From a virus, in IMG/VR virus record IMGVR_UViG_3300025769_001065, positions 1-20,741 of that record: a stretch of DNA of 20,741 nucleotides. One strand, given 5' to 3'. Positions 4,059 through 15,615 of this stretch are shown here, one piece after another (position 1 is the stretch's first letter; each line of letters begins with the position of its first letter). A program made the translations under genes and the position numbers. The notes under the pieces are model-generated. The model did not search any database. It saw only the letters and a program-made list of their open reading frames with translations, and was not told the origin of the DNA.

Positions 4059-5009
4059 ATGGCTACTACTTTGACTCTTACTGGCCTTACTGGCTATGTA
4101 GAAGAGAATGCTTTCGAACTATTGTCGAAGGCGGTACTCGAAACTAACTTGGCACAATACGTAAATGTACGTGCTGGATTGCAAGGTAACTCTGTCGACA
4201 TTCCGTTGATGGCTGATGACTTTGCTTTGAAGAATGATGGTTCTGCTACTTACTGCGGATGGTCTGATAATGGTACTACTACTATCTCTCAGGTTAACAT
4301 GAAGCTTGCACACCCAAAGTTGCAGAGAGCTTACTGTGTTAACACTCTCCGTGACACTTTTATGTCTCAGCAGCTTTCTGCTGGTGCTTACAATGGTGAG
4401 GAGGCCCTTCCATTCGAAGCTGTTGCTGCTAACTACTTCACTCAGAAGGTTAGTAACTACAACGAGATTTTCATGATTCTCGGTGATACTCTTGGTGGTG
4501 TAACTTACGGTGGTTTGAAGGCTCAGGCCGCAGCTGCTGTAACTGCAACTACTATGACTGGTATTGACCAAGGTAAGTGGGTTGCTGGTACTGCTGGTGC
4601 TGGTGAAATCAACGCATTGGACGCTGCTCTTGCTGTATTCCAATCTGCACCTGCTGAGATTGCATTACGTGATGACAATATCTTGATTGTTAGCGTTGCT
4701 GCTTACAAAGCTCTTTTAGGTGCTATGGTAAAAGCAAACTTGTACAACTACACTGGTAACGTAAATGAGGTATTCATCCCATCTACTAACGTCCGTGTTG
4801 TTCCTTCTGCTGGTATTGCTGCTACTGATAACTTTAAGCTTTTAACTTCAGGTGCTAACATCATCATGGGTACAGACTTAACTTCTGATTTTGATGAGTT
4901 CCGTGTATGGTACTCACAGGACAACGATGAAGTTCGTGCTTCTATGAAGTGGGCTGTAGGCGTTGCAATCGTTGAACCAGGATTGTGTGTTGCAGTTGAC
5001 GAACAATAA
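4059..5009 (+). CDS. Major capsid protein, HK97-like
   Basis: A 316-residue protein placed just after the scaffold. The N-terminus (LTGLTGYVEENAFELLSKAV), a central region with strands and helices (ILIVSVAAYKALLGAMVKA), and the C-terminus (FRVWYSQDNDEVRASMKWAVGVAIVEPGLCVAVDEQ) fit the pattern of major capsid proteins with the HK97 fold, where a late strand precedes the conserved P-domain end. Codon use is distinct: 11 of 12 Tyr codons are TAC, and Asn and Phe favour AAC and TTC, while surrounding genes prefer T-ending codons. That is typical of translational selection on the most abundant virion protein. It is preceded by an A/T-rich leader and followed 18 bases later by the likely tail tube gene. 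Confidence 0.85.
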   Translation: MATTLTLTGLTGYVEENAFELLSKAVLETNLAQYVNVRAGLQGNSVDIPLMADDFALKNDGSATYCGWSDNGTTTISQVNMKLAHPKLQRAYCVNTLRDTFMSQQLSAGAYNGEEALPFEAVAANYFTQKVSNYNEIFMILGDTLGGVTYGGLKAQAAAAVTATTMTGIDQGKWVAGTAGAGEINALDAALAVFQSAPAEIALRDDNILIVSVAAYKALLGAMVKANLYNYTGNVNEVFIPSTNVRVVPSAGIAATDNFKLLTSGANIIMGTDLTSDFDEFRVWYSQDNDEVRASMKWAVGVAIVEPGLCVAVDEQ

Positions 5010-9870: not shown

Positions 9871-10676
9871 TGGCAAATGCAGTAAAGACATACAATGGTG
9901 GTGATGCTTTCTTGCTGAAGCCTAATGGGATAGATAGCAGGACTGTCAATAAGCTGTTGTACACCCCAAGCCAGATTCCTCAGCAAGGTATCTTGGCTAA
10001 TTATGACCCAGCACACCCTGATAGCTATTCTGGTACAGGTACTTCAATGTTTGACTTGTCAGGTAATGGTCAAACAATTACTTTGAATGGTGGGTTAGAG
10101 AGTGGTTATGTTCAGAATGGCTGGTTTACATCTGATAATGTAAATGACTATGGTCAAAGTGGGACTAATAGTGTTACTATAAATGGGACAGCACTCACTA
10201 TGGGAATGTGGATGAGGCTTAATGTTTACCCTACTGCAAACTTTAATATTGGTTGTGGGGCATTTGCAAATGGTACACTTACTGGGAACTTTATAGACAT
10301 AAGAAAAACATCAACACAAATTCAAGCAAGGTCAAGGTATCAAGATAGTTCTGGTACCCTTGAGGTATTACAACTTGGTAGCAATCCATTGAGTGTTGGA
10401 ACTTGGTATTACATAGCATCAACCTTTGATAGTGCTACAACTACTATGATGTTGTACCTTTTTGATGGGACTGGACTTGTTAACTCAAATACAAATACTA
10501 GCACCCCATGTGATTTTGTAAATAATCCACTAGTGGGTTCAATTGTTTACAATGGATTATCAGGTTTTTATGCACCCATATCAACTGGTGAAGCACATTT
10601 CTATCAAGGGACAGCACTATCACAGGCAAGAATAGAGAACATTTACGAAAACACGAAAGCAAGATATGGCTACTAA
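9870..10676 (+). CDS. LamG/concanavalin A-like adhesin, likely receptor-binding protein
   Basis: A 268-residue protein. After an N-terminal attachment segment of about 40 residues, residues about 43-265 follow the laminin-G/concanavalin A-like jelly-roll pattern: YDPAHPDSY, then LSGNGQTITLNGG, LTMGMWMRL, VGTWYYIASTFDS, TMMLYLFDG and a final EAHFYQGTALSQARIENIYEN. Proteins of this type are carbohydrate-binding lectin-like domains on phage tails and cell surfaces. It shares one base with the tail fibre gene at 9870 and overlaps the next small gene by 11 bases. I saw no GGCC in it, in contrast to the tail genes elsewhere, which agrees with it being an exchangeable host-range cassette. Placement in the virion is inferred. 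Confidence 0.75.
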   Translation: MANAVKTYNGGDAFLLKPNGIDSRTVNKLLYTPSQIPQQGILANYDPAHPDSYSGTGTSMFDLSGNGQTITLNGGLESGYVQNGWFTSDNVNDYGQSGTNSVTINGTALTMGMWMRLNVYPTANFNIGCGAFANGTLTGNFIDIRKTSTQIQARSRYQDSSGTLEVLQLGSNPLSVGTWYYIASTFDSATTTMMLYLFDGTGLVNSNTNTSTPCDFVNNPLVGSIVYNGLSGFYAPISTGEAHFYQGTALSQARIENIYENTKARYGY

Positions 10677-10887
10677 ACTTTATAAGGTCTACCCAGCAAG
10701 AGACTACGATAATTTGGATTCGATCAAATTTACTACTAATATAAGATGGAGTAATGACGGTTCTGAGTTCATTGTTGAGTTCAAAGAACAGCCTCACGGT
10801 AACACTGTCGTACTGACTCATCAAGAAGCTGTTGATTTAATGAGTACTGAAGAGTGGAGATATCCTGATGACCTGTTTGAAGTTTAA
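10666..10887 (+). CDS. Unknown 73-residue protein
   Basis: A short protein overlapping the adhesin gene by 11 bases, starting ATGGCTACTAAAC. It has alternating charged and aromatic residues (KLYKVYPARDYDNL, FIVEFKEQ, TEEWRYPDDLF), no membrane segment and no known motif. It may be a small chaperone or cap for the adhesin or fibre, as is common for short genes directly downstream of tail fibre genes, but this is position-based inference only. Confidence 0.6.
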   Translation: MATKLYKVYPARDYDNLDSIKFTTNIRWSNDGSEFIVEFKEQPHGNTVVLTHQEAVDLMSTEEWRYPDDLFEV

Positions 10888-10902
10888 GAATTTATTCATA
10901 TC

Positions 10903-10932
10903 TTTTGAAAATTAATCAAATAAATAACTTAC
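10903..10932 (+). promoter_or_regulatory. Putative promoter/operator: TTTTGA-N11-ATAAATAACTTAC
   Basis: TTTTGA (10903-10908) is followed after 11 bases by ATAAATAACTTAC (10920-10932), which abuts the start codon of the holin gene at 10933. The same two boxes, spaced by 12, occur at 11223-11253, and a related pair at 12149-12170. The 13-base identity ATAAATAACTTAC in two separate intergenic regions is unlikely to be chance. It may be a promoter for the phage sigma factor or a shared translation leader. Confidence 0.4.
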
Positions 10933-11112
10933 ATGAAAAAGCCACAAGTTTTAGGAATTATCAGACACGCCCTTACTTTTATCGGCGGTCTATTAGTAAT
11001 GCAAGGTGTTGTAGATGATGCAGTTATTGCAGAATTATCAGGCGCTTTAATGACAGTAATCGGCGGTATATGGTCGATCATTGATAAATCAACTGAAAAA
11101 GAAAATAGATAA
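10933..11112 (+). CDS. Holin, Pam3-gp28-like
   Basis: A 59-residue ORF from ATG 10933 to TAA 11110-11112. The pattern RHALTFIGGLLVMQGVV, followed by a polar turn, a second hydrophobic helix with ALMTVIGGIWSII and a basic end, matches the Pam3-gp28 family of putative phage holins: an RHxLTxxGGxLVxxG helix then a GxxWSxxxK helix. Two membrane spans would lie near residues 9-27 and 37-51. Holins oligomerise in the inner membrane to trigger lysis. No endolysin follows; the next feature is a strong terminator. The small size explains why it is easily missed. Confidence 0.75.
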   Translation: MKKPQVLGIIRHALTFIGGLLVMQGVVDDAVIAELSGALMTVIGGIWSIIDKSTEKENR

Positions 11113-11153
11113 ATAGATTAACGTTTCATTTGTGTTTCATTTTTTGTTTTTTT

Positions 11154-11186
11154 GGGGGACCCTATTAGGCCGGGGTCCCCTTTTTT
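11154..11186 (+). terminator. Rho-independent terminator after holin gene
   Basis: GGGGACCC (11155-11162) pairs perfectly with GGGTCCCC (11173-11180) around a 10-base loop containing GGCC, and six T follow at 11181-11186. It lies 41 bases past the holin stop and closes the long portal-to-holin transcription unit. The T-rich run before the stem would not make a U-tract on the other strand, so it works in the + direction. Confidence 0.93.
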
Positions 11187-11222
11187 GTGTAATAATATAA
11201 TATTTTTCATAAATTTAACCTT

Positions 11223-11253
11223 TTTTGATGAAACAGTTAGATAAATAACTTAC
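11223..11253 (+). promoter_or_regulatory. Putative promoter/operator before HNH gene
   Basis: TTTTGA (11223-11228), 12 bases, then ATAAATAACTTAC (11241-11253). It lies between the terminator and the HNH gene (start 11296), exactly where a new transcript would need to begin. It shares the 13-base downstream box with the site before the holin gene and contains one ATGAAACA copy (11228-11235). Confidence 0.45.
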
Positions 11254-11295
11254 AATGCTACTTAAAGTATTGTTAAAAAACATAACAAATGAAAC

Positions 11296-11700
11296 ATGTT
11301 AGACTTATTCGATTATGAAACGCCAGAAGAATGGAAACAATTCCACGTATCTTATGTTAAAAAATCTAAAGCATTAAAAAGATATTGGTGGATCTCTAGC
11401 TATGGCCGAGTTAAAGTTACATTCAATTACAAAAGAAAAGAATACTTTCCACATTTGGGATTAACAGGTCGTGGATATGAGGCTATTTCAATCAATGATG
11501 CTATTGAAAAGTACGTACATAGACTGGTTGCTAGATTCTTTATACCGAATCCATTTAATCATCCAGTTGTTAATCACAAAGACTTAGATAAAACTAATAA
11601 CCATGTTGATAATTTAGAGTGGGTAACACATCAAGAGAATGCTAGACATTATCATAATTGGAAAGAGTTTATTGAATTTTTAGAGAATGAAGAAGACTAA
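11296..11700 (+). CDS. HNH homing endonuclease with NUMOD4-like N-terminus
   Basis: A 134-residue protein. Residues about 28-42 (KRYWWISSYGRVKV) form a NUMOD4-like DNA-binding start. The HNH nuclease core is YVHRLVARFFIPNP (73-86), then VVNHKDLDKTNNHVDNLEWV (91-110) and THQENARH, with His75, His94 and His103/Asn106 in the expected places for the metal-binding beta-beta-alpha fold. Free-standing phage HNH genes of this kind are usually selfish homing elements that cut homologous sites in competing phages. It has its own promoter-like region upstream, and ATGAAACATG overlaps its start codon. It could instead nick at packaging sites like terminase-associated HNH proteins, but its distance from terL argues against that. 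Confidence 0.85.
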   Translation: MLDLFDYETPEEWKQFHVSYVKKSKALKRYWWISSYGRVKVTFNYKRKEYFPHLGLTGRGYEAISINDAIEKYVHRLVARFFIPNPFNHPVVNHKDLDKTNNHVDNLEWVTHQENARHYHNWKEFIEFLENEED

Positions 11701-11866
11701 TAATGAATGGGGTTACGAGGACCCTGGAGGTGATCTGAGGCTATTAATTAGCTTCGACTATAATAACTATAGTTATGAGTCTCCAGGGTTCCTAGCCTAT
11801 CCTAAAATGAAAAAGAAGCAACATGCAAATGTTTTTCATAAAAATAGTAATAATGGATTATTTTGA
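11687..11866 (+). CDS. Short ORF, 59 residues, of uncertain reality
   Basis: ATG 11687 overlaps the last 14 bases of the HNH gene, and TGA 11864-11866 overlaps a TTG start of the next ORF, so it makes a continuous chain of coupled genes. The product is polar (KKTNNEWGYEDPGG at the start, YESPGFLAYPKMKKKQH in the middle) with no known motif. The DNA for residues about 11-36 also folds into a strong branched inverted-repeat structure (11718-11793), so this stretch may be a noncoding RNA in which the frame is open by chance, or both. Confidence 0.35.
   Translation: MKKTNNEWGYEDPGGDLRLLISFDYNNYSYESPGFLAYPKMKKKQHANVFHKNSNNGLF
11718..11793 (+). ncRNA. Candidate structured RNA, three-way junction
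   Basis: AGGACCCTGGAG (11718-11729) pairs with CTCCAGGGTTCCT (11781-11793) as 12 pairs with one bulged T. Inside, GAGGCTA (11737-11743) pairs with TAGCTTC (11749-11755) around TTAAT, including one G-U pair. ATAAC (11763-11767) pairs with GTTAT (11772-11776) around TATA and is extended by ACT/AGT at 11757-11759 and 11778-11780. The three helices meet in a compact junction with a 7-base linker (GTGATCT). No hammerhead core (CUGAUGA/GAAA) is present. A structured RNA, mRNA control element or DNA cruciform are all possible. Confidence 0.4.
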
Positions 11867-12075
11867 AGTATTTAAGACTAGTTGGATTTAATAAGACAAA
11901 TTGCGAGAATCCTGTGATACAGGTACCTATTCTTCAGGCCGAATGTATCCAGGATTCTTTTGTCTTTTATTTAGATAAAAAAGAATTAGAAGAACATTTA
12001 AAGAACTCAAAGATTAACTACATACATGATAAATGGTTTGAAGATTTAAATATTGATGATTACCTGATCCACTGA
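11863..12075 (+). CDS. Unknown 70-residue protein, TTG start
   Basis: The frame opens at TTG 11863, overlapping the previous TGA as TTGA, and contains no ATG, so TTG or a nearby ATT must be the start if it is real. The product looks protein-like (QAECIQDSFVFYLDKKELEE then KINYIHDKWFEDLNIDDYLI), mostly alpha/beta with acidic and aromatic residues and no membrane span. No family is recognised. Within it GAATCCTG (about 11902-11909) and CAGGATTC are inverse complements with a further ATAC/GTAT pair inside, so the mRNA may fold. It sits in the HNH block ahead of the structured gap. Confidence 0.5.
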   Translation: MKYLRLVGFNKTNCENPVIQVPILQAECIQDSFVFYLDKKELEEHLKNSKINYIHDKWFEDLNIDDYLIH

Positions 12076-12080
12076 TTGTT

Positions 12081-12102
12081 ATAGAAGTGTCATAGAAGTG
12101 TC
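12081..12102 (+). repeat. Tandem repeat, two 11-base units (ATAGAAGTGTC)
   Basis: ATAGAAGTGTC occurs twice in direct succession right after the stop codon of the preceding ORF, followed by ATAATAAT. It opens the gene-free stretch 12076-12575. Two perfect 11-base units may be a binding iteron or a replication slip. Confidence 0.7.
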
Positions 12103-12148
12103 ATAATAATATTAAACACTAAAAAAAGTTTAAATATTTTCACTTTTA

Positions 12149-12170
12149 TTGAAACATTATAGATAAATAG
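12149..12170 (+). promoter_or_regulatory. Promoter-like site: TTGAAACA then AGATAAATAG
   Basis: TTGAAACA (12149-12156) is followed by AGATAAATAG (12161-12170). TGAAACA plus AGATAAATA also occur together at 11229-11247 with a spacer shorter by one. It lies just upstream of the series of nested hairpins beginning at 12190, so it could drive a noncoding transcript or the leader of the sigma-factor operon. Confidence 0.35.
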
Positions 12171-12441
12171 AAGTATAAGACATAATAACAGTGGCTGGAG
12201 CAACCCACTTAAAATAGACTCGAAACTTCAGTTATACCAACTGTTGGATCGAGTAAATTAAATGTTTGATTAGGCCTTAAGTTTCTTTTATAAGTTTTGT
12301 CCTGTTGGCCCGCTTAAGACTTCCTATCATCCGTTATTTTTTAATCTTTTAAACTTGTAGGGGGCCAACAAAGAACTTAAAGGAATTAAAATACAAGATT
12401 AACAAAATACCAAAAAGATGAGCATTCAATATCAATTGTGT

Positions 12442-12476
12442 TCAGTTGAATTTTGTCATTAGACAAAATTAACTGA
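12442..12476 (+). other. Strong A/T-rich hairpin, 15 pairs with one bulge
   Basis: TCAGTT (12442-12447) and AATTTTGTC (12449-12457) pair with GACAAAATT (12462-12470) and AACTGA (12471-12476); G12448 is bulged and the loop is ATTA. One base separates it from the GC-rich dyad that follows. No T-tract follows directly, so it is not a normal terminator. Confidence 0.8.
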
Positions 12477-12477
12477 C

Positions 12478-12514
12478 TCAGCCGCGACGATCACGACGTG
12501 ATCGCGCCGGCTGA
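12478..12514. other. GC-rich dyad, 37 bases, candidate origin or protein-binding site
   Basis: TCAGCCG (12478-12484) pairs with CGGCTGA (12508-12514), and CGATCAC (12488-12494) with GTGATCG (12498-12504), around GAC, separated by a symmetric 3x3 internal loop. It is by far the most GC-rich patch in an A/T-rich genome and is rich in CpG steps. The following bases are CAACAATATAAAAA, with no T-tract, so it does not look like a terminator. A replication origin hairpin, a cos/pac site 1.6 kb before the terminase genes, or an operator are candidates. Confidence 0.6.
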
Positions 12515-12575
12515 CAACAATATAAAAATTACTTATCTTAATAGGATAAATAAGGTAACAAAACAAATAAACACA

Positions 12576-13040
12576 ATGAAAATAACTATTCCTTCTGATT
12601 ATGAATCCTTTGGTAAAGAAATACCTGAAAGAACAATGGTATTGATTGCTTTAATGTACAGATTAGAAAAGTATTATAAAGTTGATGAATGGTACACTTT
12701 TTGGTTACATGATGTTGTAACTATAGTTGGTATTAAAGTTACAACTAATATTCCTAAAAACTTAACTAATCTTGAAGCTCACCTTAAGAAATTCATAAAT
12801 ACAGCTAATTTTGATTCAAATAGATTAAGCCTTAAACTTAAAAAGTATGGTTACAGATATGATGTTGAGTATACCTTAACTGAAACAGAATCAATTATTC
12901 TACAAACACATCTTGATGGTATTAAGAATAAAGATTTTGAAGAACCTAAAATAGACAAGTACACTGAATTTTTTAAAGATGCAACCTATTATACGGAAGA
13001 AAGCTTAGCTAAAAAATTACTTAGAAATATAAATGCTTGA
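12576..13040 (+). CDS. Unknown 154-residue protein upstream of sigma factor
   Basis: I place the start at ATG 12576 (MKITIPSDYESFGKEIPE), after an A-rich leader. The frame is open to a GTG at 12498, but that GTG is inside a strong DNA dyad. The protein is Lys-, Tyr- and Thr-rich and appears alpha/beta: EIPERTMVLIALMYRLEKYY near 14-33, a linker with VVTIVGIKVTTNIPKNLTNL, then LSLKLKKYGYRYDVEYTLTE near 86-105 and a helical end. No catalytic motif is seen. It overlaps the sigma factor start by 8 bases, so the two are coupled. It could be a regulator or sigma partner, or the only unrecognised candidate for a replication function. I saw no GGCC in it. Confidence 0.7.
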   Translation: MKITIPSDYESFGKEIPERTMVLIALMYRLEKYYKVDEWYTFWLHDVVTIVGIKVTTNIPKNLTNLEAHLKKFINTANFDSNRLSLKLKKYGYRYDVEYTLTETESIILQTHLDGIKNKDFEEPKIDKYTEFFKDATYYTEESLAKKLLRNINA

Positions 13041-13695
13041 TATTAATAAATGGGTTGAAGATAATTATAATGATATAGTCTCTTGGATCACAGGAGTCAC
13101 AAGGGGTGAACGTAAAGACTTGGTTAATGATTTTATTCAAGACATTATTATCATCTTTCTAGGCCATTCAAAATCACTTGAGGCCATTGAGCGTGGAGAA
13201 GCAAGATGGTTTATAGTTAGAATAGCAATGAATCAATGGAGAAGTAAAACCTCAACATTTCATTATCAATATAGATTACGTTATACAGATATGGTCGATA
13301 AAGAATTACAAGCAGATGAGCCTTATGATCCAGAACAGGACTTATTGCTAGAATTGTTAATGATAAGTCTTGATGAAATGTCAAAGATACCAGATTATCG
13401 ATATGAGTACTTTATGATTATGTTATACTATTCAAGTGGCTGTAACTTCTCAGAGGTTGAACGTCGCACCAAGATACCAAGGACCACGGTAAGTTCTGTC
13501 TATTACCGAGGTATGGAAAAACTCAGACAGATCGTAAAATCAAATCAAACTAAATTAACAAATGGAACTTTACAACTTAATGGAGATCTTACTAAGTACA
13601 ATTTTGATCGGATTGACATCAGCCGTGGTGGTAATCAGCAAACCGTATCAATCAGTGATAAGCTTTTTAGGGCCAAATACTTTGACTTTTTTTAA
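13033..13695 (+). CDS. Phage RNA polymerase sigma factor (sigma-70/ECF-like)
   Basis: A 220-residue protein. Residues about 30-83 resemble sigma region 2: DLVNDFIQDIIIIFL, then the DNA-melting helix ARWFIVRIAMNQWRSKTS followed by aromatic residues. Residues about 104-168 resemble region 4: LLLELLMISLDEMSKIPDYR, then the helix-turn-helix GCNFSEVERRTKIPRTTVSS with YYRGMEKLRQIV. Such proteins direct host RNA polymerase to phage promoters. Residues 177-220 lie past region 4 and are encoded in the same DNA as the membrane protein at 13562 in another frame. It overlaps the preceding gene by 8 bases. The repeated box pairs at 10903, 11223 and 12149 are candidate target promoters, by inference only. 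Confidence 0.8.
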   Translation: MLDINKWVEDNYNDIVSWITGVTRGERKDLVNDFIQDIIIIFLGHSKSLEAIERGEARWFIVRIAMNQWRSKTSTFHYQYRLRYTDMVDKELQADEPYDPEQDLLLELLMISLDEMSKIPDYRYEYFMIMLYYSSGCNFSEVERRTKIPRTTVSSVYYRGMEKLRQIVKSNQTKLTNGTLQLNGDLTKYNFDRIDISRGGNQQTVSISDKLFRAKYFDFF

Positions 13696-14394: not shown

Positions 14395-15615
14395 ATGTTA
14401 GCGATAGGCTTCACACCTCACAAGAAACAGAAAGAGATTTTAGACTCTATTCTGACTCAGTCCACCAAATTTCACGTGGTATCAGTCGGTCGTCAATTTG
14501 GCAAGAGTTTAATGGGTCTCAACCTGTTATTGTACTGGGCAATCAACGAATCCCCGTGCAAGATCTTGTGGGTGAGCCCTGTGTACTCCCAATCCAATAA
14601 GATACAAAAAGAGCTGTTTGAAGCCATCCAAGAAAGCGGGCTGATCAAAAATATCAACTTCTCAGATAACTATATCCAATTAAAGAATAAGACAGAGATA
14701 ATCTTTAGATCAGCAGAAAGATATGATAATATAAGAGGTTGGACATTCGATTATGCAATACTAGACGAAGCAGCCTTTATGAAACAAGAAGCATGGACAG
14801 AAGCCATCAGACCTACACTATCAGTCCGAGGTAAGAAAGTCCTGTTTCTATCTACTCCTAAAGGTAAGAACTGGTTTCATGATCTCTATCAATTAGGACT
14901 ATCAGACAATCCTAATTATATGAGTTATCAAGGCAGCTCCAGGGATACGCCCTATATAGATCCTCAAGAAATTGAAGACGCTAAGAAAACTTTACCAGAT
15001 AAAGTCTTTAAACAAGAATACCTGGCAGAATTCTTAGATGATGGTGGAGAAGTCTTCTCAAATCTCAATGAAATCACATTTAATCAATGGCCTGCAGGGG
15101 ATACCCCTAAGTATTATTGTGGAATAGACTTAGGTAGACAAGAAGACTGGACTGTAGCCACAGTTTTGAACTCTGAGGGTCAAGTGGTTGAGATCTATAG
15201 AAATCATCAAGTTAACTGGGATGTTATGATTAATGACTTGGTTAAACTGATTAATAAATGGAATGCTATAACACTAGTAGAAGTCAACTCTATTGGTGAT
15301 GTAATATTTGATAGTCTGAAGCGAAAGGTCAAACAAATAAGGCCTTTTGTGACTACAAGTAAGTCAAAACAAGATGTTATTGAGGCCTTAATCTTGGCCG
15401 TTAACAACAGGGACGTACAGATCCCGTCTCAGAAGTTATTTGAGCCCTTGTATAATGAGATGTCTTACTTTACGTATGAATACAATCCAAGGACTCGAAG
15501 TGTGAAATACGGCCATCCTAAGGGCTTACATGATGACTGTGTGATGAGTTTGGCCATTTCTTGGAGTGCTTATAAGTCTCAGAGGTCTCTGGGCCAATAC
15601 AATTGGATAGTGTAA
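14395..15615 (+). CDS. terL: Terminase large subunit
   Basis: A 406-residue DNA-packaging motor with both domains. ATPase: Walker A VGRQFGKS (31-38), Walker B YAILDEAAF (120-128) with the catalytic Glu125, and coupling motif STPKG (153-157). RuvC-like nuclease: first Asp in YCGIDLGRQEDWT (Asp245), a second acidic site in LVEVNSIGDVI (Glu296 or Asp302), and the last in GLHDDCVMSLAIS (Asp380/Asp381). The start at ATG 14395 is 2 bases after the small subunit stop. At about 400 residues it is compact but intact. It translocates DNA through the portal and cuts it at the end of packaging. The portal gene lies far away at 6021, which is unusual. Confidence 0.95.
   Translation: MLAIGFTPHKKQKEILDSILTQSTKFHVVSVGRQFGKSLMGLNLLLYWAINESPCKILWVSPVYSQSNKIQKELFEAIQESGLIKNINFSDNYIQLKNKTEIIFRSAERYDNIRGWTFDYAILDEAAFMKQEAWTEAIRPTLSVRGKKVLFLSTPKGKNWFHDLYQLGLSDNPNYMSYQGSSRDTPYIDPQEIEDAKKTLPDKVFKQEYLAEFLDDGGEVFSNLNEITFNQWPAGDTPKYYCGIDLGRQEDWTVATVLNSEGQVVEIYRNHQVNWDVMINDLVKLINKWNAITLVEVNSIGDVIFDSLKRKVKQIRPFVTTSKSKQDVIEALILAVNNRDVQIPSQKLFEPLYNEMSYFTYEYNPRTRSVKYGHPKGLHDDCVMSLAISWSAYKSQRSLGQYNWIV

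Follow-up and report, generated by a model that had tools for sequence, protein, structure and literature searches.

The window analysed here, a 20,741-base virus fragment (IMG/VR record IMGVR_UViG_3300025769_001065), carries genes for a head-maturation protease, a portal protein, a DUF6712 protein, tail proteins, a sigma-like protein and the terminase large subunit (TerL), with the portal closest to that of Nonlabens phage P12024S at 27% identity, and a tRNA/tmRNA search of the window finding none. As an earlier note on this DNA had claimed, positions 12076-12575 hold no gene, with the only frame touching them arising when the next gene, whose start codon is likely ATG 12576, is extended to a GTG. 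The sigma-70-like protein encoded further downstream also matches Sigma70_r4 (E 0.0099), short of the cut-off of that model. The features of the region and of its relatives are collected in Table 1.

Upstream of this stretch, an intrinsic terminator probably closes the tail-gene unit, and an exact 14-base repeat, ATAAATAACTTACA, at 10920-10933 and 11241-11254, lies 5' of a gene at each site and may serve this phage as a promoter or translation signal. Strong inverted repeats at 11700-12080 (z -3.8 on the + strand, -4.8 on the - strand) span two small ORFs, 11687-11866 and 11863-12075, which may therefore overlap another structure or be non-genes. Genes for HNH endonucleases recur 5' of the RNA described below in L104 (452-1066), L033 (2760-3431) and L035 (2793-3437) as in the window, with a gap of ~20 nt between gene and RNA in the three relatives. 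A homing or group I intron, prompted by the HNH gene, was considered and rejected, with no model match and no split gene found, and with the RNA lying between genes in relatives.

Table 1. Positions of features in the window and in related contigs (L numbers); unprefixed positions are those of the window.
Feature	Position	Strand	Details
Intrinsic terminator	11154..11181	+	10-bp stem, 7 G-C, T-tract
Free-standing HNH endonuclease gene, 5' of the RNA	11296..11700	+	Pfam HNH_3 E 4e-10, PHROG 59 E 2e-26
Conserved RNA core (domain I), ~185 nt	12188..12373	+	nhmmer, covariance model including the window, MAFFT covariation
P1 hairpin, 5' end of core	12190..12209	+	AGTGG (12190-12194) with CCACT (12205-12209)
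PK1	12198..12221	+	P1 loop GAG (12198-12200) with CTC (12219-12221), directly 5' of invariant AAAC
Invariant AAACTT ... GTTGGA element, variable apical hairpin	12223..12248	+	invariant columns in alignments A4, A6, A7
Helix D, outer layer of two-layer helix	12268..12328	+	GATTAGG (12268-12274, one bulge) with CCTATC (12323-12328)
Helix A, inner layer	12276..12318	+	CTTAAGT (12276-12282) with GCTTAAG (12312-12318)
Helix B, crosses D/A and C	12289..12359	+	TATAAGTTT (12289-12297) with AAACTTGTA (12351-12359)
Helix C, crosses D/A and B	12303..12370	+	TGTTGGCCC (12303-12311) with GGGCCAACA (12362-12370)
Domain II	12410..12577	+	CCAAAAAGATGAGC (12410-12423), tandem hairpins 12442-12476 and 12478-12514
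First operon gene, 154 aa	12576..13040	+	
Sigma-70-like protein	13033..13695	+	PHROG 1740 E 4e-5
Terminase large subunit, query for relatives	14395..15615	+	PHROG 2 E 9e-49
Promoter-like motif TCTTCC...ATATGTAT, two copies flanking the RNA	L072:4114-4148, 4364-4398; L086:4249-4283, 4628-4662		L086 is the same contig as L004
Group 3/4 RNAs ahead of sigma-like/TerL operon	L007:1579-1754, L067:1376-1546, L064:789-967, L013:362-541, L053:3753-3944, L061:3738-3930		
Unannotated structured RNA of crAss-like phage cr118_1	L138:3990-4165 = NC_055872.1, 66637-66810		homologous to L007/L067 group 3 RNA
Group 5, third candidate RNA family, same slot	L025:276-604, L028:1057-1382, L027:3764-4071		a few covarying, crossing helices

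Relatives and their place at operon heads

Relatives were drawn from IMG/VR, where a TerL profile gave 80 loci, with blastn of 12000-12600 against these loci placing its best four matches (L072, L033, L059 and L035) at window positions 12194-12269, all of them 5' of sigma-like/TerL genes. Iterated nhmmer with seven seeds yielded one more independent contig, L020 (E 5e-25), and a DNA pattern search, which returned 17 stretches, five resembling coding chance matches, added L092, L094/L096, L104, L099 and L093. Group 1 comprises the window, L092, L096, L104, L033, L035 and L059, and group 2 comprises L072, L020, L004 and L002, plus L107 (nhmmer E 3.5e-6). A covariance model, R1, built on the seven group 1 sequences with the window included (alignment A7), detects L072 of group 2 (E 4.6e-9) and L093 (E 0.012), with L004 and L002 scoring at chance level (E 0.6 and 1.3) and being tied in by nhmmer and place. 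By sequence, the RNA can be recognised in some TerL relatives and not in others; many phages whose TerL is at least 59% identical are without a recognisable copy.

Further searches added little. A pattern scan of genome contigs gave 29 matches, none confirmed by profile, sigma-factor-based searches gave few loci, and loose regular-expression searches were mostly uninformative. R1 found no match in P12024S, where the operon is packed, and gave chance scores only on seven crAss-like genomes. Cyanophage S-RIM12 matched over 22 bases (E 0.3), which was taken as chance, and a chance-repeat origin of the structure was itself ruled out by the relatives.

All 23 of the RNAs listed (groups 1 and 2, L093, and groups 3-5 described below) precede, in sense orientation, the first gene of an operon, mostly at about 0.05-0.3 kb (57-300 nt) from it, the ORF picker having distorted two of the group 4 distances. 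The operon behind the RNA in the TerL relatives is sigma-like/TerS/TerL, and in L107, another phage type, the RNA heads a portal operon (PHROG portal E 7e-47). The first gene itself varies, being an unknown gene of 150 aa, a zinc-finger gene, a portal gene or crAss-like gp58. An RNA family marking the start of the packaging operon across diverged phages would offer an entry to transcription control in little-studied phages.

A 35-base promoter-like motif in group 2 ends ~7 nt before P1 and recurs ahead of the next gene; copies flanking the RNA in this way are present in L072, L004 and L020/L019. Further copies lie 5' of divergent minus-strand genes and form the independent part of this result, since the RNA and gene sites had themselves served to build the motif model. 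A promoter search of the window gave nothing beyond chance (38 vs 37.1).

Covariation and fold of the core

The + strand of 12188-12373 almost certainly encodes a real RNA. Comparison of the relatives shows the predicted core to consist of P1 and a two-layer helix formed by D and A, into which helices B and C interlock, with the strands in the order D A B C followed by A D B C. P1 is 100% paired in group 1, with two-sided changes to AGTAG/CTACT and ACTGG/CCAGT, and different sequences, their strands chosen by eye, also pair in group 2. Helix D is 94% paired with two-sided changes in four of six pairs, helix A is 100% paired with such changes in four of the six pairs counted, and helix C is 100% paired with changes on both sides in six of nine pairs. 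Helices A, B and C were recovered blind, B with compensation in 4/5 columns and with 100% pairing to its own partner vs 48% to partners from other sequences. The loop of P1 probably forms an H-type pseudoknot, PK1, which is supported more weakly than the other helices, the pairings in relatives (GAG/CTC, GAA/TTC, GGG/CCC and GAAGC/GCTTC) being short and hand-picked by eye. A P2 pairing within the invariant element is possible, without covariation. The P1 loop carries a palindrome, GAAGCTTC, in L096 (1029-1060), L104 (1089-1120), L033 (3449-3480) and L035 (3454-3485), and is without it in the window; the palindrome could let two RNA copies kiss.

In a MAFFT alignment of six group 1 sequences, 98.7% of cells of the combined P1, D, A and C structure are paired, compared with 79.5% after shuffling and 33-44% when slid, with 15 of the 26 pairs changed on both sides and none of 500 shuffles as high. 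The bracket string of the 98.7% test was drawn from the window sequence and is thereby favoured over its slid versions; tests independent of it were therefore also run. With L092 added, P1, P2, D and A are 97.5% paired vs 85.9% when shuffled. A blind scan that compared every column with every other, and kept helices having two or more compensated columns, returned exactly A, B and C in group 1, where shuffled columns expect 0.1. Applied to group 2, the scan returned TTAAG/CTTAA (GCGAA/TTCGC, TTCAG/CTGAA) as the outer helix, ATAATG/CATTAT as the inner one, GTCAGGT/ACCTGAC as a crossing one, and one small hairpin, with a third crossing helix (GCTTCC/GGAAGC, GCCTCC/GGAGGC, ATATCC/GGATAT) chosen by eye. 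By-eye pairings, namely PK1 and the group 2 C, are subject to selection bias and were given lower weight. Helices D/A of group 1 would thus be the outer and inner helices of group 2, with B and C crossing both (group 2 C by eye), and two groups that diverge in sequence yet share a single interlocked plan make the fold testable.

Searching single sequences for the strand order A B C A B C found all three helices, at matching offsets, in L096, L104, L033, L035 and L059, with 0-1 of 200 shuffles equal. The same search found A and C with a different B in L092, preferred another combination in the window (3 of 200 shuffles equal), and was weaker in group 2. Pairs of the G-U type, as in CTTGAT/ATCGAG, occur on the + strand only, becoming A-C mismatches on the opposite strand, and thus suit a + strand RNA alone.

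The nested hairpin ladder that the earlier note had seen is largely wrong as a fold, the conserved one being an interlocked pseudoknot. Its 15-pair hairpin (12442-12476), GC-rich dyad (12478-12514), AGTGG/CCACT hairpin (12190-12209) and perfect 9-pair helix TGTTGGCCC/GGGCCAACA are all present, the last two being P1 and helix C. Covariation in homologous contigs, a check proposed in that note, revealed compensatory changes in P1, D, A, B and C, hence in these two of its stems. Three other pairings of the note are not conserved in relatives. The supposed double-bulged 12-pair helix reaches at best 8 contiguous bp in the window, against unrelated stems of 4-7 bp in six relatives, and would compete with helix A; the outer layer CTCGA/TCGAG of a two-layer hairpin forms 5/5 pairs in the window and 3/5 in all six relatives; and the upstream CCACT competitor is found in the window only (0/9 relatives).

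The note's suggestion that the stretch encodes a large noncoding RNA, or else a structured leader belonging to the sigma-factor operon, is supported by the strong compensatory covariation, the + strand-only G-U pairs and the constant slot before the sigma-like/TerS/TerL operon. Its suggestion of a replication/packaging locus acting at the DNA level fares otherwise. Strong dyads and AT-rich flanks would suit an origin or packaging site in which the dyads are read as DNA, but crossing helices that covary, with compensatory changes that include G-U pairs, point to single-stranded RNA of one strand, leaving this explanation largely refuted and scarcely credible.

The 500 nt of 12076-12575 fold at -115.9 kcal/mol on the + strand vs a shuffled mean of -83.5 (z -5.4, none of 100 shuffles equal), with z -5.6 on the opposite strand. 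This excess stability stems largely from the two hairpins at 12442-12514, with 12430-12520 giving z -7.3, the conserved core alone z -2.1 and its homologues ~0. The core scores low because nested folding cannot score pseudoknots, and minimum-free-energy z-scores miss such RNAs, as the near-zero homologues illustrate.

The same two hairpins form part of domain II, a separate domain on the 3' side. Groups 1 and 4 have in common a second domain of two tandem hairpins, 1-3 nt apart, before the first gene, with the membership of the window resting on position and a short sequence match. Relatives also have a related element accompanying the tandem hairpins. In the fold of the window, 12435-12441 pairs with 12571-12577 to close the domain, reaching the next start codon.

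Sister families in the same slot

Relatives without the core RNA often have other gene-free regions, of 350-750 nt, in the same slot. Group 3 (L007, L067, L064, L013 and cr118_1) and group 4 (L053 and L061) have covarying helices of their own, and a model, R2, finds L053 at 3.6e-11 and L061 at 3.3e-4 with no training on either; groups 3 and 4 are therefore one family. Among crAss-like genomes R2 finds cr118_1 only, itself in the R2 training set; the RNA of this phage first emerged from a blastn match at E 6e-4, then proved alignable over ~250 nt, and stands at the head of a rightward non-packaging operon, adjoining a divergent promoter region. Through a sister family in this crAss-like phage, the RNA would be tied to abundant gut viruses.

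Neither R1 nor R2 finds the members of the other, so that shared ancestry of groups 1 and 3 is no more than suggested, by their place, their short motifs and domain II. The likenesses are the slot before the same operon in relatives, domain II in group 4, and a short motif, GTTGG..AGGTA..AATGT, noted by eye. That all these RNAs belong to one fast-evolving operon-head class built on a triple-interlocked pseudoknot core and spread widely among phages infecting Bacteroidota-type hosts, with sister families in the same slot and one crAss-like member, and steering transcription independently of the following gene, is a rather doubtful generalisation.

Known RNAs and the proposed role

The covariance models of Rfam 15, a comparison also proposed in the earlier note, gave no match at gathering threshold in the whole window, with GOLLD, ROOL, pRNA, ribozymes and group I introns included so far as the models cover them (the note had likewise seen no specific match to GOLLD or ROOL), and permissive searches of 10600-13100 and of 12 relatives gave only chance matches. 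A literature search of open-licence papers supplied background only, with no description of the core RNA, which would thus appear to be a new, previously uncatalogued structured phage RNA family outside any named family. Short motifs resemble a guide RNA or tracrRNA, an identity rejected with no associated nuclease recognised nearby. Like GOLLD and ROOL, the RNA is phage-encoded and of elaborate structure, ROOL having multiple pseudoknots (PMC12286853). Members of GOLLD are often >800 nt and both families often lie near tRNA islands (PMC12286853), in contrast to a core of ~185 nt, a window without tRNAs and the lack of an Rfam match.

From its place in the relatives, the core RNA probably acts as a leader for the DNA-packaging gene block. 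Our tentative preference is for a cis-acting, gene-independent mechanism over a trans-acting RNA. Transcription would start just before P1, so that the operon transcript would carry the core as its promoter-proximal 5' leader, and the emerging RNA would fold into a compact knot acting in cis, whichever gene follows, on the transcription complex or the transcript, whether by anti-pausing or antitermination as in HK022 put or by 5'-end protection. This is consistent with the constant sense place at operon heads despite a changing first gene, with the group 2 motif just upstream of P1, and with the two tandem stem-loops of domain II. Against it stand the second motif copy between RNA and next gene in group 2, such that some mRNA would lack the leader, the absence of a window promoter beyond chance, and the absence of an excess of downstream intrinsic terminators needing suppression (6 found vs 6.4 expected).

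A stand-alone noncoding RNA acting in trans, made from a promoter of its own, set free by processing or termination, and binding a host or phage protein or the ribosome as decoy, anti-defence agent or regulator, is a possibility to be taken seriously. The paired motif copies of L072, L004 and L020/L019, one directly before P1 and one before the next gene, would suit such an RNA, as would a 5' end that starts as a compact knot, a downstream gene that is not conserved, and an occurrence, by sequence, in only part of the TerL relatives. However, invariable sense placement at operon heads in unrelated contexts is needless for action in trans, and no terminator lies at the 3' end of the RNA (relatives judged by eye). 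The 5' leader position, with domain II closing at the 12576 start codon, would also fit a riboswitch or attenuator specific to the first gene, which is unlikely given that this gene differs among members and that no Rfam riboswitch matched.

The hairpin with its loop pseudoknot and A-rich linker resembles the pistol class in general shape, and P1, the loop pseudoknot, the UAAAU linker and the strictly unpaired islands could together belong to a self-cleaving ribozyme; with no Rfam ribozyme matching even at permissive thresholds, and the pistol likeness being one of shape only, this is very improbable. As a small structured RNA encoded near packaging functions, the RNA resembles phi29 pRNA, which forms a ring on the portal and is required for packaging, and it adjoins terminase genes in most members, yet a packaging RNA working with terminase is even harder to credit. 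No Rfam model matched, the RNA, or a member of its sister family, stands at the head of other operons too (a non-packaging one in the crAss-like phage, and one with the portal gene first in L107), and, as stated above, many phages with TerL at least 59% identical have no recognisable copy.

The favoured cis-acting leader is likened, by description only, to HK022 put, which consists of two stem-loops close to the promoter, ~70 nt (PMC9378689). Both would lie promoter-proximal ahead of a phage operon, the promoter here being putative, and would act in cis and independently of the gene that follows, in put through processive antitermination via RNA polymerase. Domain II likewise consists of two neighbouring stem-loops, which in the window, unlike put, lie behind an extra 185-nt interlocked pseudoknot core.
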